A DNA stretch of 64,000 nt, taken from NCBI RefSeq assembly GCF_003095655.1, contig NZ_CP029151.1:2541001-2605000 (forward strand), read 5' to 3'. The translations under genes and the position numbers were made by a program. Origin of the DNA: Dokdonia sp. Dokd-P16 (GTDB lineage Bacteria > Bacteroidota > Bacteroidia > Flavobacteriales > Flavobacteriaceae). Below the pieces are notes generated by a model, which was not told the DNA's origin, did not search any database, and worked only from the letters and a program-made list of their open reading frames with translations. Shown here one piece after another: positions 40,601-62,481 of this stretch (positions within the stretch are counted from its first letter, which is position 1; every line of letters starts with the position of its first letter).

Positions 40601-40804
40601 ATAAGTACGCTTTCGCGAAAATGTGAAGAGCTGAAAGAAAGAGCAAAATAAACAATCATAATGTCATCAAATAAGTTATTGTAGACTGCCTTTGTCATTA
40701 TAAAATCAGGAAGACCCCACGAAGAAAATTATAAATCAAGATTAGCTTAAAGGCTTGTGCTGAGTGTAACCGATTTAGGCTTTTATTTTAACTCAGTTCT
40801 TGTT
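40601..40804 (-). repeat. Cassette-site repeat, right half only (copy 1, array edge)
   Basis: Starts at a degenerate TTTCGCGAAA palindrome (40606-40625) and carries only the right arm (GTCATTATAAAATCAGGAAG, TTAGCTTAAAGGCTTGTGCT, ending CTCAGTTCTTGTT). The left arm is missing, so this marks the left edge of the array. Confidence 0.8.
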
Positions 40805-40819
40805 AGTCACGGTTCTTTT

Positions 40820-41251
40820 TTAAATTCGGCTTATAACTTCAGATATGTAATTCCAGATAGAATTCCATATAGATTTTCCTTTCTCATTGTTTGGGTCTGT
40901 TAACCAAAGACCACAAACATTGCATATAATTTTATCTTTATAAGTAGCTTTTCCCGAAAGAGAATCAAGAGCTGAAATATCAAATTCATCTGTTGTGTTT
41001 GTCCATTCCACTTTTTCCATTCGAATTTTAGTAGATTGACATCTTGAACATCTTATTCTATTATCTTTAAACTTATCTCTACGATCTTCGAAAGTCAGTT
41101 TTTCAATTTTTGATTCAGACATATTCCGTTCAGCCAAATATTCTTTTATTTCTGATTGAGTTTCTTTCATAAAAGTCAGAAGTTTGAATTTTGCAAAAAA
41201 TGCTAATTCATAATCGTTTAATTGACTTATAAATCTATGTACTCTACTCAT
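40820..41251 (-). CDS. Cassette gene A: zinc-ribbon protein of unknown function
   Basis: 143 residues from the ATG at 41251. An in-frame ATG at 41281 lies in the neighbouring repeat (giving MQWPV) and is not the real start. Helical N-terminus, then two Cys pairs, C68-x2-C71 (IRCSRCQ) and C110-x2-C113 (IICNVCGLW), forming a likely zinc ribbon. No family recognised. Its flanks are matched inverted repeats: GTGATTAAC on the start side and GTGACTAAC on the stop side, read inward to the repeat. Confidence 0.65.
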   Translation of the reverse strand: MSRVHRFISQLNDYELAFFAKFKLLTFMKETQSEIKEYLAERNMSESKIEKLTFEDRRDKFKDNRIRCSRCQSTKIRMEKVEWTNTTDEFDISALDSLSGKATYKDKIICNVCGLWLTDPNNEKGKSIWNSIWNYISEVISRI

Positions 41252-41266
41252 TTTCGTATTGTGATT

Positions 41267-41569
41267 AACAGGCCACTGCATAAAGCGAGTGCGGCTCCCG
41301 ATAGCTATCGGGATTGCTGGTTTGCTTTAATCTTTGGTCTTATCTGTTTGGACTAAATATACAATGAATTTTGGAGTTGTGCGCAGGGTGTAGCAGTTTC
41401 CAAGTTAACTGCTAGAAGTATGCATTATAGAAAGCACAAAGAGCTTAAGAAAAGCTGTTGGCATCATAAAATCATGAAGACTTTATTATGAACTATAAAT
41501 TAAAATTAGCCTAAAAGCTTGTGCTGAGCGAAGTCGATGTAGGCTTGTTTTTTAACTCAGTTTTTTGTT
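41267..41569 (-). repeat. Cassette-site repeat, copy 2 (full, 303 bp)
   Basis: Runs from AAC to GTT. The left arm holds AGGCCACTGCATAAAGCGAG, the palindrome CCCGATAGCTATCGGG and the conserved CTAAATATACAATGAATT. The centre is a decayed palindrome. The right arm ends GCTGAGCGAAGTCGATGTAG and AACTCAGTTTTTTGTT. Confidence 0.9.
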
Positions 41570-41581
41570 GGTAACTGGCTT

Positions 41582-42028
41582 TTATTTTTCAATTCTGTAT
41601 TCAATTATTTTACACTTTATAATTAAATCAGAATCGAGTTTTTCTTTTGCAATTAATCCATTTCCGCTTTTAGATAATAATTCAGGATAAAAATCAAGAG
41701 TATATTCATCTTTATTTTTTATGAGCAAAGCTTGAATTATCATTGCTCCATACTCTCTCATATTCAAATATGAAATATCAGAGCACGTAATGGTGATTAA
41801 CTCATTGGAATCTTTAAATTCTTTATTTCTATTAAAGCAACTTAATGTAATTTTAATTTGACCTTTTCCACATGAGTGATCTTCAAATTTAAATCCAGAA
41901 TTATATTCAAAATTAGTAATTAAAGCATCGTGAAAATCTCCGTAATTATCAGCAATTTCACTTAGTAGATTCATTTTTTTTGAATTGAGTTTCGGAAAAT
42001 ACTTACCAATTTTATTCAATAAATTCAT
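41582..42028 (-). CDS. Cassette gene B: unknown cytosolic protein
   Basis: 148 residues from the ATG at 42028; an in-frame ATG at 42067 lies in the repeat. It contains DNYGDFHDALITNFEYN and an alternating beta region (GQIKITLSCFNRN, ELITITCSDISYLNMREYG). No signal peptide, and I do not recognise a family. Flanks: GTTGCCAAC on the start side and GTTACCAAC on the stop side. Confidence 0.55.
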   Translation of the reverse strand: MNLLNKIGKYFPKLNSKKMNLLSEIADNYGDFHDALITNFEYNSGFKFEDHSCGKGQIKITLSCFNRNKEFKDSNELITITCSDISYLNMREYGAMIIQALLIKNKDEYTLDFYPELLSKSGNGLIAKEKLDSDLIIKCKIIEYRIEK

Positions 42029-42057
42029 TTTATTCGAGTCGAGTTTTGCTTGTTGCC

Positions 42058-42397
42058 AACAAGCCATTGCATATAGCGAGTGGATATTCCCATAGCTATC
42101 AGGATTGCTAGTTTGCTTTAATTTATGGTCTTGTTTTTTTAATCTAAATATACAATGAATTTTGGAGTTGGTGTTGTACGTAGCACCTTCAAAGTTGGCT
42201 ATTACGCTTTCGCGAAAGCGTAACCCAAATATGAGAAGTGAAGAGCATTTGTCGTAGTAGTTAATAAGCTCTTAAGACAAGTCTTTGCTATCGTAAAATG
42301 AAGAAGACCGTATGATGAATATCATTGGCTAGTTTAGCCTAAAAACATGTGCTGGGTGAAGGTGTAGTAGGCTTGGTTTTTAACTCAGTTCTTTGTT
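42058..42397 (-). repeat. Cassette-site repeat, copy 3 (full, 340 bp, intact central palindrome)
   Basis: The centre has a perfect 22-base TTTCGCGAAA palindrome at 42202-42223. The right arm is of the longer subtype (AGTAGTTAATAAGCTCTTAA). The left arm's 16-base palindrome is partly decayed. Confidence 0.9.
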
Positions 42398-42789
42398 ATA
42401 AGACGTTTCCCTTTTATAATCGATAAATACATTGTTATTAAAATAGGCCCCACAAACATTAACCACTCATCTGGTTCCTCAATCATAATAACCCATTTCC
42501 ATGCCTTTGTTCCCCCTTGTATTGAGTTGAATAAAACAAATCCGATTATTCCGATTGATAGAAAAGTAAGATTTATAAACTCAACGTTTTTGTTTTTACT
42601 TTGTTTGAGATTCATAAGTAGTCCAACATAACCAAGTATTCCAAAGGTAATTGAGATTAAAATCAACGTATCATCGACATCAAATTTTGACAGTAAGTTA
42701 GCCAAAGCGTAAATACTTAATACCATAAAATATGTCATTGGTATTAATGCTACTATGGTCAGAATAATATTTACCGTTTCTTTCTTCAA
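42385..42789 (-). CDS. Cassette gene C: small membrane protein
   Basis: 134 residues with about four hydrophobic helices (ILTIVALIPMTYFMVLSI, LILISITFGILGYVGLLM, LTFLSIGIIGFVLF, WLMFVGPILITMYLSII). The start is a TTG codon at 42789; no better start exists upstream. The last residues (ITKN) and the TGA stop are supplied by the repeat end. No family recognised. The flanks differ mainly by transitions (AATGCTTTACAAT versus AACGTCTTATAAC). Confidence 0.55.
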   Translation of the reverse strand: MKKETVNIILTIVALIPMTYFMVLSIYALANLLSKFDVDDTLILISITFGILGYVGLLMNLKQSKNKNVEFINLTFLSIGIIGFVLFNSIQGGTKAWKWVIMIEEPDEWLMFVGPILITMYLSIIKGKRLITKN

Positions 42790-42838
42790 TGTGTGCTATT
42801 GCAATCTCGTAATTTCGTTCTGTTTTCTAATGCTTTAC

Positions 42839-43187
42839 AATAGACCAATGCATAAAGAGAGTTCAGCTCCCGATAGCTATCGGGATTGCAGATTTGCTTT
42901 AATTTGTGGTCTTGTTTGTTTGATCTAAATATACAATGAATTTTAGAGTTGTGCGCAGGGTGTAGAGCTTTCCAAATTGACTGTAAGAATTACTCTTTCG
43001 CGAAAGCGTAATAAGTATGATTGAAGAAAAAATAGCCATCATCGCAGTAGTAAATAAGATCTTATAAGAATCCTTTACGATCATAATACCAAAAAGACCC
43101 TACGATAAATTATGGATTAAAATTAGCTTAAAAACTTTTACTGAGCGGAGCTAAAGTAGCCTTGTTCTTTTAACTAAGGTCTTTGTT
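42839..43187 (-). repeat. Cassette-site repeat, copy 4 (full, 349 bp)
   Basis: Left end AAT instead of AAC. Contains CCCGATAGCTATCGGG, CTAAATATACAATGAATT, a near-perfect TTTCGCGAAA palindrome around 42993-43012, and the long-subtype right arm ending GGTCTTTGTT. Confidence 0.9.
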
Positions 43188-43196
43188 ATAGCCAGT

Positions 43197-44432
43197 TTAA
43201 TATTTACTTATTAATTCCGAAATATTATTGTCCGTAGTCTCCGACATTATATCCAAAAGATCGTCAACTGTTAAATTGCTATGCGCTTTGATTTTCTTTA
43301 AAATTTCAATTAACTGATCTTTATCATTTTCAAATAAATCTTTAAAAAACTTAAAGGATCTTCCGTATTGACCTACCTCGTTAAAGTAAATGAATTTTGA
43401 GCCATACAATTTTCCTTTATCCACACTTTCAATTGGTCCATTTGCTCTCCAATCTAATAGATTTCCTTCTCTAGAGAACTTATTTGCTGCTGATAGTCTA
43501 TCATCTATGAAATATCTTTTAGCTTCTTGCGGTGCGATTTTTTTACAGAATTCATAAGCAAGGTATTCAGATAAGCCATCTCTAAACCATCTGTATTCAT
43601 AACCTTTAAGATTATATTTTTGAAGTAAAGTTCCTTCAATTATTTCATGCGAGAATGTGTTCCCTATTTTATTAGTCAACTTAACTATATTCAAACTGTC
43701 TGATTCATATAATGGTATTGTCCAAGGAATATTTCGGCTTTTTCCTATGGTTATGGTATTGTTTGAATTTGTTGTGGTTAAAAAAAGATTTTCTTTCTCA
43801 ATTTCATCAACTAGAAATTTATTTACTAACAAGCTATCTAAATGACCAAGCAGTTTTAAAGATATTTCACTTTCTCTTTTTAAACCTTCATCGAAATATA
43901 TTGTGTAACCAAATTTACTTATTGAATCGGCTGAAGATTTATCTAAAATTTTTAAGTTGGTGATATTATTGACAGGGTCATCACCAAATATTTCCTCATT
44001 CATGTATGAAGCTCTTGTGGTTAAAGGAAATTCATGTGGTTTTAGCCTATTAATTACTTGAATTTTAGCTCCGGTGTCAGTCAGTTTGTATGTGAGTTCT
44101 AGTTTATCTGATTTGTAGTTTTCATAAAACTTAGTTCCTTTTATTGAAAATATTGAGTCATTAATTTTCTTCACGAAATTGATTTCTATTTTCGTGATTA
44201 TCGCAGATGATTTAAAGTTTAAGTAAGAATATAAGGAAGTAAAAGATGTGTTGATATCACTACCTTTAAAATGAAACTCTTGAGATAGATGTGGTTTTAT
44301 TAAATCGTAATTCTTCTCATTATTAGCTTTTTTAATGTTGTCTACAATATTTATTTCGGTTTCATTCGGTTCGCGTCTGTTACAACTTAAAAGTACTATA
44401 GAAATTATCAATAATATAAATTCTCTTTTCAT
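43197..44432 (-). CDS. Cassette gene D: zincin-like lipoprotein with a degenerate metal site
   Basis: 411 residues. The signal peptide has a lipobox (IVLLSC, Cys17). The N-terminal half looks like an NTF2/DUF-type domain. The C-terminal half has FSHEIIEG (His262, Glu263) followed 20 residues later by RDGLSEYLAYEF (Glu289), the layout of gluzincin peptidases (HExxH + E). However, the second His of HExxH is Glu266. It may be inactive or use another ligand set. Flanks: AATTGGTTATAAC on the start side and AACTGGCTATAAC on the stop side. Confidence 0.6.
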   Translation of the reverse strand: MKREFILLIISIVLLSCNRREPNETEINIVDNIKKANNEKNYDLIKPHLSQEFHFKGSDINTSFTSLYSYLNFKSSAIITKIEINFVKKINDSIFSIKGTKFYENYKSDKLELTYKLTDTGAKIQVINRLKPHEFPLTTRASYMNEEIFGDDPVNNITNLKILDKSSADSISKFGYTIYFDEGLKRESEISLKLLGHLDSLLVNKFLVDEIEKENLFLTTTNSNNTITIGKSRNIPWTIPLYESDSLNIVKLTNKIGNTFSHEIIEGTLLQKYNLKGYEYRWFRDGLSEYLAYEFCKKIAPQEAKRYFIDDRLSAANKFSREGNLLDWRANGPIESVDKGKLYGSKFIYFNEVGQYGRSFKFFKDLFENDKDQLIEILKKIKAHSNLTVDDLLDIMSETTDNNISELISKY

Positions 44433-44450
44433 AAGGTCATAATTGGTTAT

Positions 44451-44754
44451 AACAGCCCACTACATAAATCAAGCACTACTCCCGATAGCTATCGGGATTG
44501 CTAGTTTGCTTTAATTTATGGTCTTGTTTTTTAATCTAAATATACAATGAATTTTGTAGTTGTATGCCGCGTGTAAGGGTTTCAAAGTTGACTGCTAGAA
44601 GTATGCTTTTGGGAGAGTATAAAGAGCGTAAGAAATGCTGTTGCCATCATAAAATCCTGAAGACTTTATTATGAACTATAAATTAAAATTAGCCTAAAAG
44701 CTTTTGCTGAGCGTAGCCGAAGCAGACCTTGTTTTTTTAACTCAGAGCTTTGTT
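44451..44754 (-). repeat. Cassette-site repeat, copy 5 (full, 304 bp)
   Basis: AAC to GTT. CCCGATAGCTATCGGG and CTAAATATACAATGAATT are intact, and the central palindrome has decayed to TATGCTTTTGGGAGAGTATA. Short-subtype right arm. Confidence 0.9.
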
Positions 44755-44768
44755 GTTTACAGTAATTT

Positions 44769-45305
44769 TCACGTCATCCAGATTTCATATTCAACTATGA
44801 CTGTCCAGATTCCGTAAACTTTTTTTAGAAAATACTTCTTTCCATATGCACTTCCTGTAAATTTCCAATAACGCACAGAAACAACACAATTTTCGTATTT
44901 ATTATCAAAAATAGGTTCGCTTATTGAAATAATATTTTGTCTTTTCTTTGTCTTTTTAAATAGTTTTTCAGCGTCTTTTTTAGTTAAACATTCTTTATTC
45001 TTAATAAAATCCTTGTTGTAAATTAATTCGTTTATCAATTCCGAATTCCAAATGCCAACTCTACTTTTTGATTCATTTAGTTCAATTTCCTTTAAAACAT
45101 TTTCGGGGATATTAAGTCCAGTTGCTACTTTAAAATCTTTTGCGTCGAAAGAGGTTTTTGGTTTTTCACATTGGATATTCATTCCTCGTCCACCTTTTAC
45201 AATTTCGTAGTCAATGATTTTCCTAAACACCTCAGATTCCGAGTTATTTTGTGAATAGCCCACAGTTGCAATTAATATCAGAAGTATGTTTAAAGTTCGT
45301 TTCAT
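44769..45305 (-). CDS. Cassette gene E: exported protein of unknown function
   Basis: 178 residues with a signal peptide (MKRTLNILLILIATVGYSQ). The mature part has a paired Cys pattern (IQCEKP, KNECLTKK, ENCVVSV) and a C-terminal beta region (GKKYFLKKVYGIWTVIVEYE). No family recognised. Flanks: GTATTGTACCCAAC versus TTACTGTAAACAAC (10 of 14 identical). Confidence 0.6.
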   Translation of the reverse strand: MKRTLNILLILIATVGYSQNNSESEVFRKIIDYEIVKGGRGMNIQCEKPKTSFDAKDFKVATGLNIPENVLKEIELNESKSRVGIWNSELINELIYNKDFIKNKECLTKKDAEKLFKKTKKRQNIISISEPIFDNKYENCVVSVRYWKFTGSAYGKKYFLKKVYGIWTVIVEYEIWMT

Positions 45306-45317
45306 CGTATTGTACCC

Positions 45318-45617
45318 AACGGGCCACTTTATAAAGCGAGTGCGGTTCCGGATAACTATCGGAATTGCTGATTTGCTTTAGTTTATGGTTTTGTTTGGAC
45401 TAAATATACAATGAATTTTGGAGTTGTGTGCTAGGCGTAGTGGTTTCAAAGTTGACTGCTAGAAGTATGCTTTCTGGAAAGTATAAAGAGCGTAAGTAAG
45501 GCTTTTATAGTCCTCAAATCAAGAAGATCTTGAGATGAATATTATTGATTAGTTTAGCTTAGAAACATGTGCTGAGTGAAGGTGTAATAGTCTTGCTTTT
45601 AAACTCAGTTCTTTGTT
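45318..45617 (-). repeat. Cassette-site repeat, copy 6 (full, 300 bp)
   Basis: Left end ACCCAAC fits the classical RYYYAAC attC box exactly. Its left-arm palindrome is slightly decayed (CCGGATAACTATCGG). The centre is TATGCTTTCTGGAAAGTATA. Confidence 0.88.
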
Positions 45618-45635
45618 TGTATTTCGTTGTTTTTT

Positions 45636-46346
45636 TTAGTTTTCAAATTCACAAATAATAGGTAAATGGTCACTAATTTTTAACCACTCATTAATTTTTC
45701 CAAATTCCATTTTTATAAGTCCGTTTATAAATTCCTTACTACCGAAAATATAATCTATATGATATGGTTTTTCTAATTGTCTATGAAGGAAAAAAGTCGG
45801 TCGCGTTTCAATTCCTTGTTCTTCTTTCCAATAGTTATGATATAAGCTTTCAATTCCAATTTCGTTCAATTCATTCACAACGTCAGAATGATTCCACCAT
45901 CTGTCCCATTTGTCCCAAATTTTATTACTATTGAAATCTCCGATAATTAAACTCTTATTCAATTTTGATTTGTTGACTTGAAGATATTTCCATAATTGTC
46001 CGATATACCCAAAAGTCGGTGATTTATTACTGTGTGTCCAAACTGCTAATAAGTCAAAATCTCCATTTACAGAACAAGGTAAAAAGTGTTTTACTTTATG
46101 GTCTTTAAAATTGTCCGACCAATTCAATTTTTTTAGTCCTATATTTTTCTTTGCAAAAATTCCAATTCCTTTATTTTTGGTATCTCCAATCCACAAATGA
46201 TTTTCCGCCCATTTAATATATTCCTTATGTTTCGTTTCCGCTGGATTTTCACACTCTTGAATTATAATAATATCAGCATTGAAGGTTGATAAATTATCAA
46301 ACTTATTTCTCAATGCTCCATTACAATTCCAAGTTAATATCTTCAA
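45636..46346 (-). CDS. Cassette gene F: endonuclease/exonuclease/phosphatase (EEP) family protein
   Basis: 236 residues, no signal peptide, so it acts in the cytosol. All EEP catalytic positions are seen: Asn7 (TWNCN), Glu31 (IIQEC), Asp137 and Asn139 (IIGDFNS), Asp198 (YHIDYIF), Asp226-His227 (ISDHLPI). The family cleaves phosphodiester bonds in nucleic acids, lipids or inositol phosphates. Closest by eye are the ExoIII-like DNase/DNA-repair types. It is a single gene between cassette sites. Confidence 0.85.
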   Translation of the reverse strand: MKILTWNCNGALRNKFDNLSTFNADIIIIQECENPAETKHKEYIKWAENHLWIGDTKNKGIGIFAKKNIGLKKLNWSDNFKDHKVKHFLPCSVNGDFDLLAVWTHSNKSPTFGYIGQLWKYLQVNKSKLNKSLIIGDFNSNKIWDKWDRWWNHSDVVNELNEIGIESLYHNYWKEEQGIETRPTFFLHRQLEKPYHIDYIFGSKEFINGLIKMEFGKINEWLKISDHLPIICEFEN

Positions 46347-46373
46347 TTCTAGTGAGTTTTTTTAATGAATGTG

Positions 46374-46548
46374 AACAAACCACTACAAAAAGCAAATCCA
46401 GCTCTCAATAACTATTGAGTATGCTAATTTCTTCTACTTTGCGGTCTTGTTTATTTGCTCTAAATATACAATGAATTACGGTGTTACTTGATTCACATAG
46501 AGAATACACTTCTGTAAATGACAATCATATTTTCGCGAAAGCGTAAAA
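46374..46548 (-). repeat. Cassette-site repeat, left half only (copy 7)
   Basis: AAC start, diverged left arm (ACTATTGAGTATGCTAATTT, then CTAAATATACAATGAATT) ending exactly at a TTTCGCGAAA palindrome (46531-46546). The right arm is absent; copy 8 supplies a right half 2.7 kb away. Confidence 0.82.
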
Positions 46549-46632: not shown

Positions 46633-48807
46633 CTAGAGTTTAATCTTGAACCCTCCATTAATCACAAAACCATCTACGGGAGCATAGATGTCTCTAAACT
46701 CAGGATTACTAACGCTTCCGGTGAAAATAGTGTCAAATCTAGTCTGTCTTGTATCACCAAAATTTTCAAAATTGATAAATACAGAAAAGTTCTCCCAAAG
46801 TTTTTCTACCATAAATCCAAATAGCCAATACTGCTGTCCAGTATTACCATCATTTAACTCCTGCGGACTAAAATAGTAGGCCTCTAGCCCCATTTTGATC
46901 TTGTCTTCTACCTCATACATAAGCACATTATTAAGCCTGTGCTTTGATACTAGTGGGAAGGTACTGCTGGCACCTTCAATGTGCTGATTTACATCTGCCA
47001 GTGTATAGCCTATAAAAAGCGCGAGATCGTTATAAGAAAGTTTTACGTTTGTCTCTATTCCCTTGGTTGCAATATCGCCGTCAGGTTGCTCAAATTGATA
47101 CAGAGTATTTTCTTGAGGCACCAGCACTAGTGGATCTTCTATCTGCGTGTAAAACAGTAACGTGTTAATACTAAAAGATAGATTATCTGTAATAGGTGTT
47201 TTATAATTAATGTCAAAATTTGCTCCTATACTTTGCTCTGCTTCTGTATTTGCCACATCTATAGGGAGCACATTTTGAAACTGTATGCGCTCTGCATCTT
47301 CTGTAAATACGGTAGGTGTTTTGTACCCAAGACCACCGCCTAGGCGTAGTGATAACTTGGGGTTCACGCGCATAAGTCCTGATACTCTAGGTAAAACAAA
47401 GAGTCCATATTCGTTTTGGTAATCCGTTCTTAGTCCAGACTCGAGCACAAATTGCTCATTGATATCCCAAGTGTTTTGCACAAAGATACCTGCAGTGGTG
47501 TGATTATAATCAACAACGTCTAGTGTACCTTCTTGATCTTGAGTAAAAGAATCTGTCCATAAATTTGCGCCAAAAACCCACTCAGAAGCACCAGAAATAG
47601 TGGTGTAGGTACCTTCAGTAAATGTAGATATTTGGGCTCCAGAAAATGTAAAATCTGGAATCTCAATACTACGATCATAAAAGCTCACACTATTTTTAAA
47701 CGCAAGCTCGCTATTATCACTGAGACGATGATCTAAGCCTAGTTGCGAACTAAGTCGCGTGGTTTCATTCCTTTCAAAAAAGCGGTTAGGTAAGTTTTCA
47801 CCTTCTTCTATAAAAGTAATATCACCACCTATGCGGTCTTCTAGTATGCTATTAAAACCTATAGTAGCTTCGGTCTTATCAGATAGCGTGAGAAACAGTT
47901 TAGGATTAAGTGTATATCTCGTAAACTTAGGGATGGCTGTAAGTCCTATGTCTGCAGGGTCGTAGGGAGTACCTACGTTATATGAAGCAAATATGGTAGT
48001 ACCTACTTTATCAAATTGCTCTGCATAAAACCCACTTAAATCTAGTCCCAAGGCAGAGGTTCCATTAAGCATGAAACTAAGCTCTCGCTCATCTGTAGGT
48101 TTTTTAGAAACCAAATTTACAAGACCGGCAATTGCTCCACCGCCATATAGGGTAGAAGAGGCACCTTTGATTACCTCGACCTGTTTAAGATCTAAAGGTG
48201 CAATTTGCATCAAACTCAGCCCACCAGAAAATCCCGCATATAATGGAAAACCATCTCGCAATATCTGTGTGTACTTACCATCTAGTCCTTGTATACGGAT
48301 GCTAGAATTATAAGAAGTGGCAGAGGTTTGTTGTGTCTGTATACCCGTACTCTCGTTAAGCATCATACGTATGTCACCAGGTTTCATATTCCCTTTTTCC
48401 TCTAGCTCTTCGCCAGAGATAGCTTCCATACGTGTGGGTATGTTATAGATGGTTCTCTTAGATCTAGTAGAGGCAATTACCACCTCTTCTAGCGACTCAT
48501 CGTCACTCTTAGTAAGTAGGATTTCTATAGCGTTAAGCGTAGTAAGCGGGAAACTCCTTGTAATGCTATACGCCTCATAGCCTAGATAGTTTATAATAAT
48601 AGTTTGCTCGCCCTCTGCAATATTCTTGAGCTGTATATAGCCATCTTGGTTTGATATTGCGCCATTAGTAGTGCCTACTACTATCGCTGTCGCATCTGCG
48701 AGTGCTTGCTTCGTATCAATATCAAGTACTCGTGCATTAAATGTATGTTGCCCTAGCATTACAGATGCATATAGCATTGCAAGCAGTGGCAAAATGAATG
48801 TTTTCAT
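46633..48807 (-). CDS. TonB-dependent outer-membrane receptor
   Basis: 724 residues with a signal peptide. An N-terminal carboxypeptidase-regulatory domain (FNARVLDIDTKQALADATAIVVGT to IINYLGYE, about 22-100) precedes the plug (RIQGLDGKYTQILRDGFPLYAG, VEVIKGASSTLYGGGAIAGLVNLVSKKP) and a 22-strand-type barrel ending in FVINGGFKIKL. The substrate is not clear; the small Cys-rich protein gene beside it hints at a metal. Its codon and base use look like the core genome rather than the AT-rich cassette genes. Confidence 0.92.
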   Translation of the reverse strand: MKTFILPLLAMLYASVMLGQHTFNARVLDIDTKQALADATAIVVGTTNGAISNQDGYIQLKNIAEGEQTIIINYLGYEAYSITRSFPLTTLNAIEILLTKSDDESLEEVVIASTRSKRTIYNIPTRMEAISGEELEEKGNMKPGDIRMMLNESTGIQTQQTSATSYNSSIRIQGLDGKYTQILRDGFPLYAGFSGGLSLMQIAPLDLKQVEVIKGASSTLYGGGAIAGLVNLVSKKPTDERELSFMLNGTSALGLDLSGFYAEQFDKVGTTIFASYNVGTPYDPADIGLTAIPKFTRYTLNPKLFLTLSDKTEATIGFNSILEDRIGGDITFIEEGENLPNRFFERNETTRLSSQLGLDHRLSDNSELAFKNSVSFYDRSIEIPDFTFSGAQISTFTEGTYTTISGASEWVFGANLWTDSFTQDQEGTLDVVDYNHTTAGIFVQNTWDINEQFVLESGLRTDYQNEYGLFVLPRVSGLMRVNPKLSLRLGGGLGYKTPTVFTEDAERIQFQNVLPIDVANTEAEQSIGANFDINYKTPITDNLSFSINTLLFYTQIEDPLVLVPQENTLYQFEQPDGDIATKGIETNVKLSYNDLALFIGYTLADVNQHIEGASSTFPLVSKHRLNNVLMYEVEDKIKMGLEAYYFSPQELNDGNTGQQYWLFGFMVEKLWENFSVFINFENFGDTRQTRFDTIFTGSVSNPEFRDIYAPVDGFVINGGFKIKL

Positions 48808-54510: not shown

Positions 54511-54817
54511 CTATGCTAGACCAAAGTAAAACTTAAAATATCTAATGTGTTGAAAATGCCATGTATCATAATCATAAACCACTAAGAGTATTACTTTTTT
54601 AAACCAATTCCATGTTACACTTCTGGTAGGTGAGTGGACTAGTGTTTTGGCTGTGTTCTTGGCTGGTTTTTAAGTACTCATGAATGAGAAGCTCCTTTTT
54701 AATAAGTCTCTTGCTAGTAGATGCGATTCGCGTTTAGGTAGCTAGTCATATATGTTTTAAAAAAGATACTAGCTTTAAGAATTACAAAGGCTGAATTATG
54801 AATTATTCTAAATGTCG

Positions 54818-55003
54818 TTATTCTTTAATTTTCCTGTTGTTGGTAACACTTTTAAATAATTTATAAGCGTACAAGACTGCAATTAAGATTAAGAGGCTAC
54901 ATATTAAATACTTCTCTTCTGCATAATAATTTAATGCACCAACGGCTCCAAAGGCAGCCCATAGGAGATTTGTTAAGGTGTCGCTTTTAAGTATATTTTT
55001 CAT
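54818..55003 (-). CDS. Small membrane protein
   Basis: 61 residues with two hydrophobic segments (NLLWAAFGAVGALNYYAE, LICSLLILIAVLYAYKLF) and a basic tail. It lies 36 bases after the acyltransferase stop, in the same direction, so it is likely cotranscribed. No family recognised. Confidence 0.5.
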   Translation of the reverse strand: MKNILKSDTLTNLLWAAFGAVGALNYYAEEKYLICSLLILIAVLYAYKLFKSVTNNRKIKE

Positions 55004-55039
55004 GGATTGTTTTATTTAGCTCTTTACATTTGGTAATTA

Positions 55040-56113
55040 TTATCTTCCTCCGGTCATTAAATAATAACCTTGAGGGATATATTTTTTTGTGAGAGTCCCA
55101 ACAATGACACTTACTAAAATGGTAATCACCGGAGCTGAGAAATAAATTAAAAACGAGCTTAATTGAGACTGGCCTAACACATAATAAAAACCTTTTTTAA
55201 AAATCGTTAAAACAGGCTCGTGGAATGCAAATAAGAAAAATGAATATTGAAAGAGTTGATAACATTTAGATTTCTCTATGTCCTTTTTCTCAAAAATGAT
55301 ATCATACAAAAGCCAGATTGATGCTATTCCCACTAAGATACTTGACTTGTGCAATATTCTAATCAACCATTCATTTTCAACGTTTACGTATATTAAGTAG
55401 GTTTTAATAAAAACCAATAAAACCCAAATCATACATACCATAGCATTTTTCTTTCTCAACTTTATCTTCTGAATATTTATTTTTTGTATGCCAAAGAATG
55501 CACCAAGAGCAAAAAATAACAAAGCCTCATTAGAAAAAATTAAATAATCAAATTGAAATAACCAGGTAATTAAGAATATACATATGATATAAACTTTAAA
55601 ATATTTTACTAGCCAGTATAAGATTGGGGAAAAAATAATCAACACAATTAAATCTCTTATAAACCATAGCTGGTATGGAATAGGATTCAAAAAAATACTA
55701 TTAAACCAGTCTTTAAGTGAATAATCAATAATTAAATTATTTGTAAAAAATGGTTTTGAAAACGGGATTAATTGTAAGAAAAGAAAGAATAATAAACCAT
55801 AAATAGACCATAGTAGATAAGGTAAAACAAGAGTTTTATATCTTTTTCTGAATTTGGAGAAAAACTCAGATGTAGAACCATTCTTAATTGATAAGAAAAA
55901 TAAGTAACCTGAGATTATAAAAAATAAGGGAACAGCAACTCTTGTTATGCCTTCACTTATTAAGTTTTGAATAAACGAATTATAACCTTTTTCTATTAAT
56001 GCAGTCTCTGTGGTAAATTTTATTTTCAGATTATAAGAATGTAAGAACACTACCATTATCATTAATAGAAATGAGATTGCTTTTATTTTGTCACTTAAAA
56101 ATTTGCTTATCAT
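55040..56113 (-). CDS. Acyltransferase 3 family membrane protein
   Basis: 357 residues with about ten membrane helices. The first helix carries the catalytic-type His (VVFLHSYNL), then ISGYLFFLS, FRKRYKTLVLPYLLWS and WFIRDLIVLIIFSPILYWLVK, all typical of acyltransferase 3 (OafA/WecH type), which O-acetylates surface sugars. The gene is very AT-rich. It lies between copies 12 and 13 with the small membrane gene, so the cargo here has two genes plus a pseudogene remnant. Confidence 0.85.
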   Translation of the reverse strand: MISKFLSDKIKAISFLLMIMVVFLHSYNLKIKFTTETALIEKGYNSFIQNLISEGITRVAVPLFFIISGYLFFLSIKNGSTSEFFSKFRKRYKTLVLPYLLWSIYGLLFFLFLQLIPFSKPFFTNNLIIDYSLKDWFNSIFLNPIPYQLWFIRDLIVLIIFSPILYWLVKYFKVYIICIFLITWLFQFDYLIFSNEALLFFALGAFFGIQKINIQKIKLRKKNAMVCMIWVLLVFIKTYLIYVNVENEWLIRILHKSSILVGIASIWLLYDIIFEKKDIEKSKCYQLFQYSFFLFAFHEPVLTIFKKGFYYVLGQSQLSSFLIYFSAPVITILVSVIVGTLTKKYIPQGYYLMTGGR

Positions 56114-56150
56114 TAACTATTAGTAGATTATCTGTTTTTCAATTATTGGA

Positions 56151-56498
56151 AAGAAGCCATTACATAAAGCGAGTGCGGCTCCCAATAGCAGGCGGGATTA
56201 CTAGTTCGCTTTAATTTATGGTCTTGTTTGTTTGGACTAAATATACAATGAATTTTAGATTAACTGTTGCTGGTTGTGCTTTCAAAGTTGGTTTTTATAA
56301 TTACGCTTTCGCGAAAGCGTAACAAGATTTTGGTAAGAGTAAAACTAGCATCATCGCAGTGGCAAATAAGCTCTTGGAAAAGCCTTTGCCATCATAAAAT
56401 CCTGAATACCCTATGACAAAAATTATAGATCAAGATTAGCTTAAAAACGTTCACTGAGCGAAGTCGAAGCAGGCTTGTTTTTAACTCAAAACTTTGGT
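56151..56498 (-). repeat. Cassette-site repeat, copy 13 (full, 348 bp, intact central palindrome)
   Basis: The left-arm palindrome is disrupted (CCCAATAGCAGGCGGG). The centre has a perfect 22-base TTTCGCGAAA palindrome at 56301-56322. Long-subtype right arm, with a mutated right end (ACTTTGGTAG). Confidence 0.88.
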
Positions 56499-56506
56499 AG
56501 TGGACG

Positions 56507-57589
56507 TTATTTTTCAGATGCAGCTAATTTTATCAAATTCATACATTCGATATAAATTTGTTCGAATGGAATTTCGCCTTTAGGCTTGTAATTACTTAAT
56601 GTTATATAAATTTCTTTTCTTACGTCTTTGCATTTATTCAGATAAAAATTGTGACCATCATCTTTTCCAAATTCACGAAATGAAATTAATTCTTGTAATA
56701 CATTAACAATAAGATGATCCACAGTATCTATTATCTCGGCTTCATTACAATCTTCGCAAATAGATTTATATTGGTCTAAATTTCCTATGTGTTTGTTTAA
56801 TAATTCATCTGTAAATAGATGAGAAGATTCGTGATATATTCTAGTTCGTAAACTATTATCAAGCTCCAAAAACGTGTTTTGTAAAGTTGGTTCATTAGAA
56901 TTGTCACACAGATTAGCAACAATTACTGCTCGTTTTTTAGGGTTATAATAATCGTAAAATGATACAGCTTTATTATTTGCATTATTGGTGAGCTCAACAA
57001 TGACATGAAGCTCTAATCCATTTTCATTGGATTGATAAAATTCAGTTATCGTGTTAAAAAGGTTTTCTTCATCTATTTCTTGTTGAACATTTTGAGTAGC
57101 ATCATCATAATACTTTTTGTTATCATTGAAAAAAGATTTAAAATCAGATTTATTATAAAAATCAATAAGAAGTGGTTTTATAGAGTCCATTTCTTCTATA
57201 GTAATACCATAGGCTGGAAACTCTTTTCTATACATTGAATCCATTTCAAAATTTTCTAAAGATTCATACATCAAACCAACAGTTGGAAAATCAATTCCCA
57301 TTGTTTCATGGTTGTAGATGTATTTTATGAGACTATGATTTTTGAATGGTTTGAAATAAGTGTTTATTCTATTTAAATATTCTGTTTTGCAAGGTGTTAT
57401 ATCCGAAGGTAAATCATCTTGAACTGCAAGATTAAATATTGTTCTAAAAAACTCCGTTCGTTCGTCAGTTTTGAAAATCACTTTGTTTTCTAAATTATTT
57501 TCAGAAATTATAGTTTCGTTGACAGTCTTATTTTTACAAGCGAAGACAATAGTTAAAAGCAGTAAAATTAATAATGATGTTTTTTTCAT
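56507..57589 (-). CDS. Cassette gene M: HExxH lipoprotein (DUF4932-like)
   Basis: 360 residues. The signal peptide has a lipobox (IVFACKN, Cys18). TDERTEFFRTIFNLAV near the N-terminus and a zinc-protease motif YHESSH (His253-Glu254-x-x-His257) are seen. The layout recalls the DUF4932 family of putative zincins; I have not verified this. It would act on the outer surface or periplasmic face. A second, degenerate zincin-like lipoprotein (gene D) occurs in the same array. Confidence 0.65.
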   Translation of the reverse strand: MKKTSLLILLLLTIVFACKNKTVNETIISENNLENKVIFKTDERTEFFRTIFNLAVQDDLPSDITPCKTEYLNRINTYFKPFKNHSLIKYIYNHETMGIDFPTVGLMYESLENFEMDSMYRKEFPAYGITIEEMDSIKPLLIDFYNKSDFKSFFNDNKKYYDDATQNVQQEIDEENLFNTITEFYQSNENGLELHVIVELTNNANNKAVSFYDYYNPKKRAVIVANLCDNSNEPTLQNTFLELDNSLRTRIYHESSHLFTDELLNKHIGNLDQYKSICEDCNEAEIIDTVDHLIVNVLQELISFREFGKDDGHNFYLNKCKDVRKEIYITLSNYKPKGEIPFEQIYIECMNLIKLAASEK

Positions 57590-57654
57590 TGGTTTGTTTT
57601 AATACAAAAGACCGTACTTTTTAAAAATGTTACAGTTTTACTCTTGTATACGCT

Positions 57655-57985
57655 TACAAGCCACTGCATATAGCGAGTGCGCCTCCCGATAGCTATCGGG
57701 ATTGCTAGTTTGCTAAATCTAAATCTATAATGAATTTTAAGTTGTGCGCCGCGCGTAGCGCTTGCAAAGTTGATTGCAAGAAGTACGCTTTCGCGAAAGT
57801 ATAATGAGTACTAGAGAAGAGCAAAAAACTAGCTCTCATCGCAGTAGCAAATAAGCTCTTAAAACAAGTCTTTGCCATCATAAAATCAGGAAGACCCTAC
57901 GATGAAAATTATAGATCAAAATTAGCTTAAAAGCTTGTGTTGGGCGTAGCCGAAGTAGGCTTGTTTTTTAATTCAGTTCTTTGCT
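57655..57985 (-). repeat. Cassette-site repeat, copy 14 (full, 331 bp)
   Basis: CCCGATAGCTATCGGG is intact. The CTAAATATACAATGAATT block is mutated (CTAAATCTATAATGAATT), the only such copy. The palindrome TACGCTTTCGCGAAAGTATA lies at 57784-57803. Long-subtype right arm. Confidence 0.88.
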
Positions 57986-58546
57986 ATGTTCTTTTTTATA
58001 TTTTAATTTTCCTTTTGGGTCAATAAATTTCAGGGCGGATTCACTCATTGCTCCAATCTCATTAAAATTCTGTTGAGCTTCCTTTAAAGTCATATGATTT
58101 GGTCCGCTACCTCCATTTTCCCAGAAACAGACAGGACAAATATCCCAAGCTCCATCTTCTCCAAAATCTATTGAATAGAATTCGCAGCAAGGACATTTTC
58201 CAGTTAGTTCTTTAGCCCCTATAACTTTATATTCAATTTTGAATTCAAATAATCTCATTTCAAGATATTGATTAGTGACATGTAAAAGAGAATCAATTAA
58301 ATAGAGTCGATATATAGGTCTAAATTCTAAGGTGAATTCTATATCAAACCATTCTTCTGTTTCAATCCCAATAAGGTTTTGTTCAGATAATCTAGAGATT
58401 TTACCACTTGAGATGAGACTACTAATTTCCTCTGTGTAATCGTAGTAAGGAAAGTCAATCTTCAATTCTTCAAGGTCGCAGTTGGATTCATTTAGAATTG
58501 TTTCTGCAATTAGTTCTTTCGCCTTATCTCTATAGATTTCTTCCAT
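57968..58546 (-). CDS. Cassette gene N: CPCC cysteine-rich domain protein
   Basis: 192 residues from the ATG at 58546. A longer frame to 58783 runs through the repeat and is rejected. The C-terminal third has the CPCC domain (GKCPCCEF, then AWDICPVCFWENGG and GPNHMTLKEAQQNFNEIGA), a zinc-binding module of PF14206. The N-terminal part is helical and unknown. The C-terminal residues KELN are repeat-encoded. Flanks: AACATAAC and AACATAGC. Confidence 0.8.
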   Translation of the reverse strand: MEEIYRDKAKELIAETILNESNCDLEELKIDFPYYDYTEEISSLISSGKISRLSEQNLIGIETEEWFDIEFTLEFRPIYRLYLIDSLLHVTNQYLEMRLFEFKIEYKVIGAKELTGKCPCCEFYSIDFGEDGAWDICPVCFWENGGSGPNHMTLKEAQQNFNEIGAMSESALKFIDPKGKLKYKKEHSKELN

Positions 58547-58562
58547 TTCTGTAATTAAACAT

Positions 58563-59165
58563 AACCAGGCCACTGCATAAAGTGAGTGCGGCTCCCGATA
58601 GCTATCGGGATTGCTGATTTGCTTTAATTTGCGGTATTGTTTGTTTGATCTAAATATACAATGAATTTTGGAGTTGTGCGCCGCGCGTAGAGCTTTCAAA
58701 TCCCGATGTACTTCGGGACGCTTTATGCTGTAGTTCTTGCATCCGACGAGTAAGGAACGAACGAGAGGAATGCACAGTTGCAACCACGTTTCGAGCTTTC
58801 TGTAATTAAGATGTATGCCCTAGGCATTTTTGAGTCCTGCCTCCGAAGAGCATAGCGAGAGGAAGGCATCAAAGAACCGATTAGTCACGCAATCACCATT
58901 TATCGATAGAAAGACACCAAGAGCTTTAAAATCCTAGCAGATTTGCTCTAACTTGATCTATACCCAACTCTTCGATATTTCAACGACTTTTGAGGTGTTC
59001 TGATTTTGAAGTGGAGCCATACGATGGCGCGAATTTCCAAGTATGCTACTGCCTTTGATGTGGCTTATCTTGAGATTAAAAACATGTCCTTTGGCAATCA
59101 GCCGTCCACGTTCAGTGTATGGTGTCGTAGCATCCCGCAGGGTGCTATGCACTATACACATTGTT
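58563..59165 (-). repeat. Cassette-site repeat, copy 15 (long type, 603 bp)
   Basis: The left arm is the standard one (AGGCCACTGCATAAAGTGAG, CCCGATAGCTATCGGG, CTAAATATACAATGAATT), but after GTAGAGCTTTCAAA the right part is unrelated to the others. It carries TGCCTCCGAAGAGCATAGCG-type hairpins and a block from about 58848 to 59140, and ends ACACATTGTT. Confidence 0.85.
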
Positions 59166-61427
59166 GTAATGCGTTTTTAATACCTCATCAATAGCCTCTA
59201 CGACAGTATCCGCATTCTCTTTGCTAAAACACAAGGCTGGTTTAGTTTTTATAATGTTGTCAAAAGGACCATCAGTACTTATTAATATATGTTTCCTTCG
59301 TAATTCATTCTTAATGTGATTCGCTAGTTCTGTATTTGGGTTTTTGGAATTATCTCTTACTATTTCGCAACCAATAAATAATCCGCTACCTCTTATATCT
59401 CCAATGCAACCATATTTATGCATTAATTCTTTTAGCAGTAATGTGTAATGTTCGCCTACTACTTTAGCATTGACTTGTAGTCCTTCTTCTTCTATAGCAT
59501 CTAATACCGCAGTAGCTATGGCACAAGAAACTGGGTTGCCTCCAAACGAACTAAAGAACTCTACACCTTTTTCAAAAGTAGCAGCAATCTCCTCCGTACA
59601 AACCACAGCTCCCATTGGGTGACCATTTGCTATTGGCTTACCAAGTATTACCATATCAGGTATTACATCAGAAGCTTCAAATCCCCAAAAGTGTTGTCCC
59701 AGTCGCCCGAATCCTGTTTGAACTTCATCACTAATACAAACTCCCCCTTGTGCTCTTATGGCTGGGTAGATTTCATTTAAATAACCTTTTGGCAATGGCA
59801 CTTGACCTGCACAGCCTACAATAGGCTCACTAATGAAGGCAGAAATTGGTACAGTACTATCTTTAATTTGTGCTACCGCATCTAATCCGTATAGCTTTCC
59901 AGCATTGGGATTATCCTTTTGATAAACTCCTTTGTAAGTATCTGGTATAACAGTTTTTATAATGTGTTTTTTTTGACCATTCCCTTTAGGATTGTTGAAT
60001 TTATAATCACTTATTTCTAAGGACGTTTGTGTGTTACCGTGATAGCCAAGTTCCATTACCATCATATGTTTTGACCCTGTATGGTTATTCGCCATTCTAA
60101 TAGCCAAATCACTAGCAGCACTTCCAGAATTGACAAAAAACACCTTGTTCAACTTAGGGGGAAAATGACCCAATAATTTTTCAGCATATATAGCTAGTTC
60201 ATCAAATAAATACCTTGTATTGGTATTCAGTTGAGCCATTTGCTTTTTACCTGCCTGTACCACCTTTGGGTGCGAATGTCCTACGTGAGGTATGTTGTTA
60301 TAAGCATCTAAAAAAGTATTCCCATCTGCGTCATACATATATTGAAATGCTGAACGAACCATATGAATAGGCTCTTTATAGCTTAATGACAATATTGGGC
60401 TGATGTGCTGAAACCTTCTTTTTAGAACTTCCTTTATATGCATCTGTTCTAGCTTTGTAAGACCTGCTGCTTTTCTGAATTCATTTTCAGCTTTGATTGG
60501 ATTTATTGCAAGCCAACGATATAGCATTTTCCAAGCCGATTTCTCACTTATAGATGCATAGGTGTTATTAGGGTCTGCTTTACGTGCGTGTGCCGAATTG
60601 CATACGCTGGTACAAAGTCTTGCAGCTATGAGGTAATACAGAATTTTTAGTTCTTTCTCTTCTATTGGCAGTACTTGATGATACGCTTTAATAAGTACAA
60701 CAGCCCATTCTAGGGGATTCTCTTTGTCATAGCATCCGTAAGTGATAGCTATGGCTAATTCGTTAATTAAAAAGGTATGAGCAACATCTCCGAAATCAAT
60801 GATTCCTGAAATCTCACCATTTTTAACAAGTAAGTTCCATTCGTTAGCATCATTATGAATGACCTGTTTTCTTAGTTCTGGAATGATAGGTCTTACAATT
60901 TCCTCAAATTGATTAAAAAAATAGGCAACTACATTTCTATCCTTTGGGTTGGGAATGTCATTGATATATTTTTTATTTAGATCAAAGTATTGAATATCCC
61001 ATTCCCATCTTCTGGCTTGAATGGTGTAGTTTTTTAAGTCTTTTAATTTGATATCTATCTTTGCCAAGAAAGTTCCCAAGGATTCAAATAAGGATGGTGT
61101 ATGTTTTGCTTTTCCAAGAAATTCTCCTTTCAAAAAAGAAAGCATACGGGAAATTACTTTATCATTATCTGAGTCTACTATTTTCACATAGGAATTGTCT
61201 TTAAAGGGAACAGGCTTTGGAATATACGAGTCAAATTCTTCTTGTAAGTAAAGAAGAACTTCATTCTCTGCTTCAACGGTATCTTTTAACGATTCTGAAT
61301 AAGTATAAGTCTTATAGATAAAATCATTTTCTTCAGTAGCGATATGATAGTTCTTGTTATCATAACCATCAAGTATCTTTTTGTTCAGAATTTTGATGCC
61401 AAATTCTTTTTCTAAAAATGTGTTCAT
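59145..61427 (-). CDS. Cassette gene O: phosphotransferase-aminotransferase class III fusion
   Basis: 760 residues from the ATG at 61427; the in-frame start at 61499 lies inside the VOC gene. Residues 1-330 form an APH/choline-kinase-like domain (KQVIHNDANEWNLLVKNGEISGIIDFGDVAHT). The rest is a class III PLP aminotransferase (VFFVNSGSAASDLAIRMA, ISDEVQTGFGRLGQHFW, VILGKPIANGHPMGAVV with the PLP Lys). The aminotransferase part resembles ethanolamine-phosphate phospho-lyases, so a kinase then lyase route for an amino alcohol is plausible. The last residues YNNVYSA are repeat-encoded. Confidence 0.85.
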   Translation of the reverse strand: MNTFLEKEFGIKILNKKILDGYDNKNYHIATEENDFIYKTYTYSESLKDTVEAENEVLLYLQEEFDSYIPKPVPFKDNSYVKIVDSDNDKVISRMLSFLKGEFLGKAKHTPSLFESLGTFLAKIDIKLKDLKNYTIQARRWEWDIQYFDLNKKYINDIPNPKDRNVVAYFFNQFEEIVRPIIPELRKQVIHNDANEWNLLVKNGEISGIIDFGDVAHTFLINELAIAITYGCYDKENPLEWAVVLIKAYHQVLPIEEKELKILYYLIAARLCTSVCNSAHARKADPNNTYASISEKSAWKMLYRWLAINPIKAENEFRKAAGLTKLEQMHIKEVLKRRFQHISPILSLSYKEPIHMVRSAFQYMYDADGNTFLDAYNNIPHVGHSHPKVVQAGKKQMAQLNTNTRYLFDELAIYAEKLLGHFPPKLNKVFFVNSGSAASDLAIRMANNHTGSKHMMVMELGYHGNTQTSLEISDYKFNNPKGNGQKKHIIKTVIPDTYKGVYQKDNPNAGKLYGLDAVAQIKDSTVPISAFISEPIVGCAGQVPLPKGYLNEIYPAIRAQGGVCISDEVQTGFGRLGQHFWGFEASDVIPDMVILGKPIANGHPMGAVVCTEEIAATFEKGVEFFSSFGGNPVSCAIATAVLDAIEEEGLQVNAKVVGEHYTLLLKELMHKYGCIGDIRGSGLFIGCEIVRDNSKNPNTELANHIKNELRRKHILISTDGPFDNIIKTKPALCFSKENADTVVEAIDEVLKTHYNNVYSA

Positions 61428-61428
61428 A

Positions 61429-61839
61429 TTACTTAAATATCTCGTCAGGGTTAGAAAATGACTTAAATTCCAAAGGATTACCACTAAAATCAAAAACAAA
61501 CATTGTCAATTGTTCGCCTACTTTTCCTTGGTATCTTTTTTGCGGCTTAACAACAAAATCAATTTTTTCTGATTCTAGTTTCTTTTGTATTCTTTCAAAC
61601 ACATCCATATCCAGTAAGCACCCAAAATGAGGAATTGGAACACTAATCCCATCTACCTTACCACAGTAGTCTAATTCGGGAAAATCATCACTAATGTGCG
61701 CTGAAAGCTGATTATCAAAAAAATCAAAATCAAGCCAAGTTTCTGTAAACCTGCCTTCTTTACAGCCCAAAATATCTACATAGAATTTTCTTGTTGATTC
61801 TATATCTTTTACTTTAAATGCATAGTGGAATGCTGCCAT
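61429..61839 (-). CDS. Cassette gene P: VOC (glyoxalase/extradiol) family protein
   Basis: 136 residues. FHYAFKVKDIESTRKFYVDILGCKEGR, VPIPHFGCLL and TMFVFDFSGNPLEFKSF give two beta-alpha-beta-beta-beta units with the usual His/Glu metal positions. It stops 1 base before the fusion gene starts, so the two are coupled and the enzyme pair probably shares a pathway. Flanks of the two-gene cassette: AAATGCATTACAAC and AAACGCATTACAAC (13 of 14). Confidence 0.88.
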   Translation of the reverse strand: MAAFHYAFKVKDIESTRKFYVDILGCKEGRFTETWLDFDFFDNQLSAHISDDFPELDYCGKVDGISVPIPHFGCLLDMDVFERIQKKLESEKIDFVVKPQKRYQGKVGEQLTMFVFDFSGNPLEFKSFSNPDEIFK

Positions 61840-61876
61840 AATGTGTTTTCTTTTTTTTTGTTCTCAAATGCATTAC

Positions 61877-62481
61877 AACAGGCCACTGCATAAAGCGAGT
61901 GCGGCATACTTCGACAGGCTCAGTACAAGCTTTGCTGGTTTGCTTTAATTTGCGGTCTGGTTTGTTTGATCTAAATATACAATGAATTTTGGAGTTGTGC
62001 GCCGCGCGTAGAGCTTTCAAACTTGCCTCCGACGAGCGCAGCGAGAGGAAGGCATTAAAGAACCGGTTAGTTACCCAATCACCGTTTATCAATAAAAAGA
62101 CATAAAGAGCTTTAAAATCCTTGCGAATTTGCTCTAACTTGATCTATACCCAACTCTTCGATATTTCAACGACTTTTAGGTGTTCTGATTTTGAAGTGGA
62201 GCCATACGATGGCGGGAATTTCCAAGTATGCTACTGCCTTGGATTTGGCTTATCTTGAGATGAAAAACATGTCCTTTGGCAATCAGCCGTCCACGGTCTA
62301 GTATATGAAACGTAGCGTATAAATAGACACTAACTTTTCGGATTATACACGAGCCGAATTTTTATTTTTTATGTTTAACTTTTTCTTTTTTAAATATACA
62401 AAAATAAAAATTTGGCGGACTTAGTAAATAAGCAAAAACCTCTCGGAAAGCCTGTAATAGCTATGTTTTATATACATTGTT
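61877..62481 (-). repeat. Cassette-site repeat, copy 16 (long type, 605 bp)
   Basis: Standard left arm, but the CCCGATAGCTATCGGG palindrome is replaced by ACTTCGACAGGCTCAGTACA. The second block (62033-62300) is a direct repeat of 58848-59140. Then comes a new stretch with GCGGACTTAGTAAATAAGCA and the right end ACATTGTT. Confidence 0.82.

Follow-up and report, generated by a model that had tools for sequence, protein, structure and literature searches.

The 64,000-nucleotide stretch of Dokdonia sp. Dokd-P16 DNA analysed here (the window; positions 2541001-2605000 of the single 3,623,447-base contig of this genome, G000) carries, between positions 40,601 and 62,481, an array of small genes separated by repeats. 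With a probability of roughly 85%, we consider this to be an outlying array of an integron-like system, in which the two ends of each cassette are complementary to each other and in which folded single strands are moved by a remote tyrosine recombinase that lacks I2, the IntI-specific insert. This recombinase, whose gene neighbours the main array of the genome, would carry out both excision and insertion of the cassettes in folded single-stranded form. The crossover would fall at G|TT, the bottom strand would be the substrate, and insertion at the attI site might be resolved by replication, as in integrons. On this view, the window array would be a satellite of greater age that has eroded in part but might still serve in trans.

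Complementary cassette ends and predicted folding of the sites

In integrons, both ends of one cassette build the R arm of the attC site in the circle. We therefore compared by permutation the 11-mer at each cassette start with the interior of its own cassette and with the interiors of other cassettes. The preference for the own cassette reached z 8.9 in the relative G016 and 6.7 in the main array of G000, with no hits in 20,000 permutations in either, followed by 4.9 at locus L054 (0 hits), 3.1 at L067 (45 hits), 3.1 in the relative G006 (143 hits), and 2.2 in the window (648 hits). In a second test, the cassette end was located solely from the conserved side of the repeat; of nine arrays examined, six gave 24 cassettes, and the 23 with a consensus edge of at least 9/14 were kept. 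Their seven variable end bases matched their own start at 6.00/7, whereas the score was 2.72 with other cassettes and 2.43 with the next one in line (z 8.8, 0/20,000), and several pair types occur at each of the seven positions. Within a single repeat copy, the ends pair at 2.43/7, level with unrelated pairings (2.72). Tested by itself, the window gives 13 rows, including a false start within the TonB gene, a misplaced end (51794), and an end one base off (40805), and these match their own start at 3.46 versus 1.98 (3/50,000).

Fourteen sites were folded in the arrangement that they would have in a circular cassette. A single hairpin with an R arm, an internal loop, and an L stem is predicted for the sites from the main arrays and from the gene-less modules described below, and for a 57-bp site in the window, while the two composite repeats tested from the window give less clean hairpins. 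A detector that combines an own-start match, a hairpin with a gapless stem, and a closing G|T found 60 cassettes at 13 of 14 loci examined (none in L056). Site length is 120-126 bp in 30 of these and 162-199 bp in 22 (together 52/60), and the 3′ side of the internal loop is longer by 3 nt in 42/60. An end-to-end series of such cassettes starts at the recombinase side, or attI, and comprises five in L061 and four in L048. The repeat sequences vary by genus, and the site architecture is constant.

In its strict form, the detector returned 50 cassettes on the array strand in 171 kb (14 loci) and one on the wrong strand. The controls gave none: neither 253 kb of control strands, counting both strands of window 1-38 kb and of the flanks downstream of nine loci, nor 513 kb of shuffled sequence contained a strict cassette. 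Hairpins alone numbered 69 in arrays, two in the window array, and eight in the control strands. The stem was also checked independently of the detector, on 29 gene cassettes whose boundaries are set by module junctions; a usable R match is available in 26. A gapless L stem (run scoring at least 8) is present in 23 of these 26, with a median run of 17 bp, and the mean L-stem score is 13.7 versus 3.7 at shifted positions. Because the L stem is gapless, most sites are without the bulged bases read by I2 in IntI enzymes (PMC7790495). Beside 18 canonical IntI genes (181 kb), the detector, which is not tuned to canonical attC, gave two strict cassettes and none on the wrong strand (12 and 11 in the loose form), a control of little weight. 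Simple scans upstream of 18 canonical Bacteroidota IntI genes (L233-L250) gave almost no sites of either type.

The recombinase and its arrays

The recombinase is a protein of 274 amino acids encoded 1.1 or 2.5 Mb from the window, by a gene divergent from the main array. The initial annotation had noted that no IntI gene lies in the window and had proposed integron-like capture with a recombinase that is remote, different, or lost. The capture idea is supported in kind, all six PF00589 matches in the genome fall outside the window, and of the three options the remote recombinase is borne out, its gene standing at the head of a sister array. The annotation had looked to an IntI-specific additional domain as the mark of such an enzyme, but this domain is lacking. 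The I2 region comprises 68 residues in 9/9 rows shown for the recombinase clade versus 110 in 8/8 canonical IntI rows shown, and the match to IntI4 falls into two parts and is 43 residues short. A fold search returned many tyrosine recombinases at similar Z, and families were not separated. Cassette cutting would be performed by this enzyme without I2.

The recombinases of G006, G016, and the relative G012 are 99, 96, and 87% identical to that of G000. In four species, the DNA is alike outward from the recombinase to ...GTAACTTGCGT(A/T)TATATA..CG|T and unrelated beyond; this is attI, which lies between the recombinase gene and the divergent array. Across 25 loci, a motif of 12 nt close to the recombinase start is repeated outward at an offset of 47 nt, with a mean best match of 8.84/12 versus 6.02 when shuffled (z 11.1), a statistic in which related loci are not independent and for which offsets of 35, 37, 46, and 48 also pass at z 3.8-4.8. 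A third copy (at least 8/12) lies 91-99 nt from the first in eight of the 25 loci, and the motif sequence varies between genera (an example site is G000:C1:90791-90905). These repeated motifs are likely to be binding sites of the recombinase or to serve its autoregulation.

The association of this recombinase with cassettes extends beyond Dokdonia. A scan of named genomes gave 80 loci, of which 58 were put through the detector and 49 have more than 1 kb upstream. Of the 14 clade loci among these 49, 11 have strict cassettes on the upstream side of the recombinase, compared with 0/35 other loci, and none lies on the wrong strand or downstream. The other loci comprise 34 that are more distant, among them L074 (50% identical, no open frame found), and L068, which falls outside the clade in the tree. 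Clade loci come from Lacinutrix, Croceitalea, Aureitalea, Flagellimonas, Allomuricauda, Aquimarina, a Cyclobacteriaceae genome, and others. Among further genomes with more than 1 kb upstream, strict cassettes were found at four of six loci with E up to 1e-74, two of them on contigs as long as those of L056 and L059, and at one of ten more distant loci (L224). At E 1e-74, the recombinase is present in eight of 299 sampled genomes of the family, the Dokd-P16 genome among them. At L049, L051, L053, L055, L057, L058, L063, and L065, draft contigs stop 63-384 bp upstream of the recombinase, as would be expected if a repeat-rich array broke the assembly. Among 18 loci examined for direct repeats, L046, L047, L068, L069, L087, and L106 have none.

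A second kind of unit occurs in the main arrays (L159-L161 in G016, L031-L032 in G000, and L156-L158 in G006). This gene-less module of about 370-570 bp has the form G|TGG(A/C)GGCTGATTG ... own R'' ... GCAGTGGCCTG| and comes after the gene cassette in 15 of the 20 G016 intervals, an unbroken series from the first one on, as well as in 10 of the 15 intervals of G000 and 5 of the 10 of G006. A full 11/11 match to the own start is seen in 16/16 modules of G016, 5/10 of G000, and 4/5 of G006, and the first unit after attI in G016 is such a module. The module may be a promoter, a spacer, or a selfish cassette.

The initial annotation held that a cassette order identical in all relatives, with no recombinase anywhere, would speak against capture; a recombinase exists, and comparison of close relatives reveals different content and no fixed order. 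The main arrays of G000 and G006 align at 95.8% on the recombinase side and at 89-93% on the far side. Between these conserved flanks (23.7 kb in G000, 18.3 kb in G006), the only high-scoring segment pairs (HSPs) above 400 nt, a length at which shorter common cassettes could escape, are repeats that each match several places. At the window locus, the TonB receptor block recurs in G008 with 83.6% identity over 3103 nt, along with the half repeats flanking it, and the G008 arrays on either side of this block have only repeats in common with the window. G006 has an array at this locus and no TonB receptor, the repeat was seen in 6 kb of G012, and no repeat occurs among HSPs above 100 nt in 19 kb of G016. 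The receptor is present at high identity in one of eight relatives (G008), and the TolC-like flank DNA on the upstream side of block B has no match in five relatives. Some cassette genes are common to separate arrays: L061 (Aureitalea) and G016 have one in common (88% over 863 nt), and the G016 main array has one in common with a further array of G000, at 70% over 925 nt.

Weighing the explanations

Several observations weigh against the interpretation of the window as part of a functional integron-like system. Activity without I2 is a real leap, because deletion of I2 abolishes IntI1 function, and the accessible part of PMC7790495 describes I2 as necessary for cassette capture and absent from other proteins. 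The four cassettes of G008 fail the pairing test (z 1.0, 6,649/20,000), and this genome has no recombinase match at E 1e-40, yet carries arrays at the window locus. Three of the 14 clade loci (L046, L056, and L059) have no strict cassette, and the detector in its loose form returned 60 cassettes on the array strand but also 33 on the wrong strand, 6 in controls, and 14 in shuffled sequence. In the window itself, there are no strict cassettes versus two in the adjoining 20 kb, and 9/13 rows match their own start at no more than 4/7. The window array may be dead for these last two reasons.

We consider the chances about even that the window array is a fossil only, such that the main locus is real and the composite repeats here are no longer substrates. 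Besides the missing strict cassettes, own matches of 5-7/7 in just 4 of the 13 rows agree with this. However, the window rows match their own starts beyond chance, one perfect 57-bp site is left, and the locus varies among G008, G006, and G016.

It is also conceivable, though we think it unlikely, that the recombinase is a derived IntI and that the system is an old canonical integron in which the enzyme was simplified by loss of I2. The integron integrase model TIGR02249 is the best-scoring NCBIfam model for the recombinase, at 184.4 bits and under its cut-off of 265, and a topology in which the recombinase clade together with L138 is sister to IntI is not rejected by the approximately unbiased test (p-AU 0.083). 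But when the clade without L138 is joined to IntI, the topology is rejected (p-AU 0.008), and canonical IntI proteins form one clade (11 rows, 100/100; 28/28 at support 1.0 in a wider tree) with the recombinase clade outside it. The recombinase clade occupies one side of a branch (16 rows), with support of 96/94, or 94/93 when the tree is rerun without L041, a XerD on a long branch. L138 adjoins this clade, and its genome also has cassettes (L224). Moreover, the nearest relatives of the recombinase are Bacteroidota recombinases that lack I2, and 9/10 of their loci examined have no strict cassette upstream. Of 296 phylum genomes, 84 carry a canonical IntI that scores over the cut-off, and among the 86 with a match at E 1e-45 a single genome belongs to the same class and none to the same family. 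These phylogenetic comparisons tend to favour an independent origin of the recombinase system.

Somewhat less probable again is the idea that the hairpins are a by-product and that the recombinase, in the manner of Xer or phage integrases, acts on conventional double-stranded sites. The enzyme has no I2 and most stems lack single-base bulges, which are features of single-strand recognition by IntI in the accessible parts of PMC4792948 and PMC7790495. Against this, the R-arm bases are complementary within their own cassette and not to others, a match that a double-stranded site does not need, and the bottom strand folds more stably than the top in 51/60 sites. Xer recombinases (archaeal XerA, XerC/D; compare CTXphi integration) act at dif, and to our knowledge they carry no cassette arrays. 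Finally, it is very improbable that the repeats are like miniature inverted-repeat transposable elements, or other repeats between which homologous recombination exchanges genes, because the many similar copies, half copies, and internal palindromes that such an origin would explain are joined by repeat ends that pair with the far cassette end (6.00/7) rather than mutually (2.43/7), by genus-specific sequences with a constant architecture, and by strict cassettes confined to one strand upstream of the recombinase.

The window array and its relation to integrons

When the window was searched by blastn with one repeat, 17 HSPs fell on the minus strand, spread over 15 places from 40.7 to 62.0 kb, and a single match of 22 nt fell on the plus strand; a separate repeat search recovered the same repeat families. 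The one-way array of the initial annotation, with minus-strand genes that are mostly single between repeats, is borne out, except that a TonB receptor and DUF6660-like gene pair interrupts it and some intervals hold two or more genes. Its AT-rich block is real for most of 41-57 kb, where GC content per 2-kb bin is 29-33%, and less so at 57-62 kb (34-38%) and across the TonB receptor (up to 40%), the remaining window being 32-41%. Its attC-like sites of 300-350 bp must be abandoned. The repeat of this length joins a 5′ element (AACAAAGAACTGAGTT...) to the final part of a gene-less module; its 3′ part, of about 140 bp, is common to a separate module, and the sites proper are mostly 120-126 or 162-199 bp, with one of 57 bp. 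Since the repeat is such a composite, 5′ and 3′ parts are found alone, at 40.8, 46.5, 49.4, 51.0, 58.7, and 62.0 kb. The palindromes CCCGATAGCTATCGGGA and ACGCTTTCGCGAAAGCGT recur within the repeats, for example at 41290-41310 and 56300-56320. Rfam models gave nothing above gathering score over 38-64 kb of the window.

Further copies elsewhere in the genome, for which the initial annotation proposed a search, do exist: one repeat has at least 44 matches genome-wide, a lower bound with 40 of 70 first-look candidates scored. They cluster in arrays on the plus strand at 92-114, 3460-3462, and 3545-3555 kb and on the minus strand at 2582-2616 kb; single copies lie at 2783, 3210, and 3400 kb.

All features of the window array listed here lie on the minus strand, and Pfam names the domains of some of their proteins. 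A degenerate gene-less module of 415 bp (61879..62293) precedes the first complete cassette of the window (59109..61878, junction at 61878), which pairs a glyoxalase-like gene (61429-61839) with a gene for a 760-amino-acid protein (59145-61427) that fuses APH phosphotransferase and class-III aminotransferase domains. This cassette is closed by the intact 57-bp attC-like hairpin site (59109..59165), the AAC side of which pairs with the cassette start at 61878. Its R'' matches the reverse complement of that start at 10/11, and its bottom strand forms a single hairpin of -24.1 kcal versus -18.4 for the top strand. Between this site and the next cassette is a degenerate 543-bp module (58566..59108) that begins G|TGGACGGCTG and finishes GCAGTGGCCTG; its own R''/R' pair is lost (7/11), compared with 11/11 in intact copies elsewhere.

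There follow two cassettes that each end in a composite repeat, with a CPCC protein gene (57968-58546; cassette 57657..58565, R''/R' 2/7, eroded or with its start one base off) and a DUF4932 lipoprotein-like gene (56507-57589; cassette 56153..57656, 4/7). A segment with an acyltransferase gene (55040-56113), a small open reading frame, and a composite repeat (54044..56152, 3/7) likely represents eroded or fused cassettes. The ParD-ParE cassette (53126..54043), with ParD from 53980, ParE at 53442-53744, and a composite repeat at 53428-53126, matches its own start at 7/7. The next segment (50975..53125) holds genes at 52467-53138, 51638-52306 (DUF7822), and 51245-51616 and a terminal half repeat (51126-50975); it scores 3/7, but the end scored (51794) differs from the repeat edge at 52479. 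The segment at 49260..50974 (3/7) then has two lipoprotein-like genes (50413-50940 and 49475-50392) and a half repeat that adjoins the DUF6660-like gene (E 0.00087, below the family cut-off), which with the TonB-dependent receptor forms the non-cassette pair at 46633..49209.

Beyond this pair, an EEP nuclease gene (45636-46346, PF03372) and a composite repeat (45617-45320) make up the cassette at 45320..46375 (3/7). Four further cassettes with composite repeats encode a protein of 178 amino acids (44453..45319, 5/7), a lipoprotein-like protein of 411 amino acids (42841..44452, 6/7), a membrane-protein-like product of 134 amino acids (42060..42840, 4/7), and a protein of 161 amino acids (41269..42059, 5/7). 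The last cassette (40590..41268) carries a gene for a zinc-ribbon-like protein of 153 amino acids and ends in a half repeat adjoining the gene at 40007-40588; its own match is 0/7, scored at an edge one base off (40805).

As named by Pfam, the cargo of the window includes ParD/ParE, EEP nuclease, CPCC, DUF4932, DUF7822, acyltransferase, glyoxalase, and aminotransferase with APH. Ten cassette proteins of G016 gave matches to TPR, cation efflux, trypsin-like, DUF7003, and ParE families, with two weak matches and three proteins unmatched, and PADLOC matched none of ten cassette proteins. The G016 main array includes two 751-bp ParE cassettes at separate places (L160 near 17996 and L161 near 2667) that are identical in start, end, and site length.

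The system shares with integrons, such as the Vibrio superintegron, a recombinase divergent from a one-way array, an adjoining attI, and mostly single-gene cassettes. The sites are likewise bounded by AAC and GTT, with complementarity inside the own cassette, a hairpin with an internal loop, and remote clusters without an integrase. Unlike integrons, the recombinase has no IntI-specific insert and falls outside the IntI clade, the L stem mostly lacks the single-base bulges of the canonical pattern in the literature, the internal loop mostly carries 3 extra nt on its 3′ side, gene-less module cassettes stand between gene cassettes in Dokdonia-like genomes, and attI has a 12-nt motif about 47 nt apart. 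With an insert-less enzyme, a clade placed outside IntI rather than within it, and sites that are mostly free of bulges, the system appears integron-like in function but lacks two features that define the IntI family, the insert and the bulges, and is not a canonical IntI integron. With no nearby recombinase, the window array resembles the cassette clusters without integrase (CALIN) treated in the accessible part of PMC9024848, but its sites are non-canonical and the recombinase is elsewhere in the genome. The CAT-domain insertion is also not fully conserved in an integron-like subgroup of simple tyrosine recombinases (PMC8138268), for whose insert-less members the part of that paper available to us gives no array, attI, or site.

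Our literature search on Bacteroidetes and flavobacterial integrons, I2, and independent origin, which covered no preprints and few subscription papers, found no description of flavobacterial integrons without I2. The available sections of PMC8618304 and PMC9668308 list Bacteroidota among integron phyla, and those of PMC9024848 report that IntegronFinder 2.0 detects complete integrons in Chlorobi and Ignavibacteriae and one in Bacteroidetes, in Salinibacter ruber. Because the IntI search of IntegronFinder requires PF00589 plus the IntI-specific domain, as given in the available text of PMC9668308, integrons of the kind without I2 would be missed by design.

The accessible part of PMC4792948 poses an integron paradox, a chicken-and-egg question of how I2 could be selected before attC or attC before I2. 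A natural system of attC-like sites, with an attI and turnover of cassettes, that lacks I2 and, at most of its sites, the bulges makes this question of I2 and attC origin testable. We would put it at a coin's toss that integrons arose twice, with a platform in Flavobacteriia built from an Xer-like recombinase without I2 and from folded bottom-strand sites without extrahelical bases. I2 and bulges would then be dispensable, and some of these systems would add a gene-less cassette after each gene cassette. The flavobacterial arrays are also a large and little annotated store of cassette genes, and the system would let biologists test how integrons arose with an enzyme that lacks the helix held to be essential.

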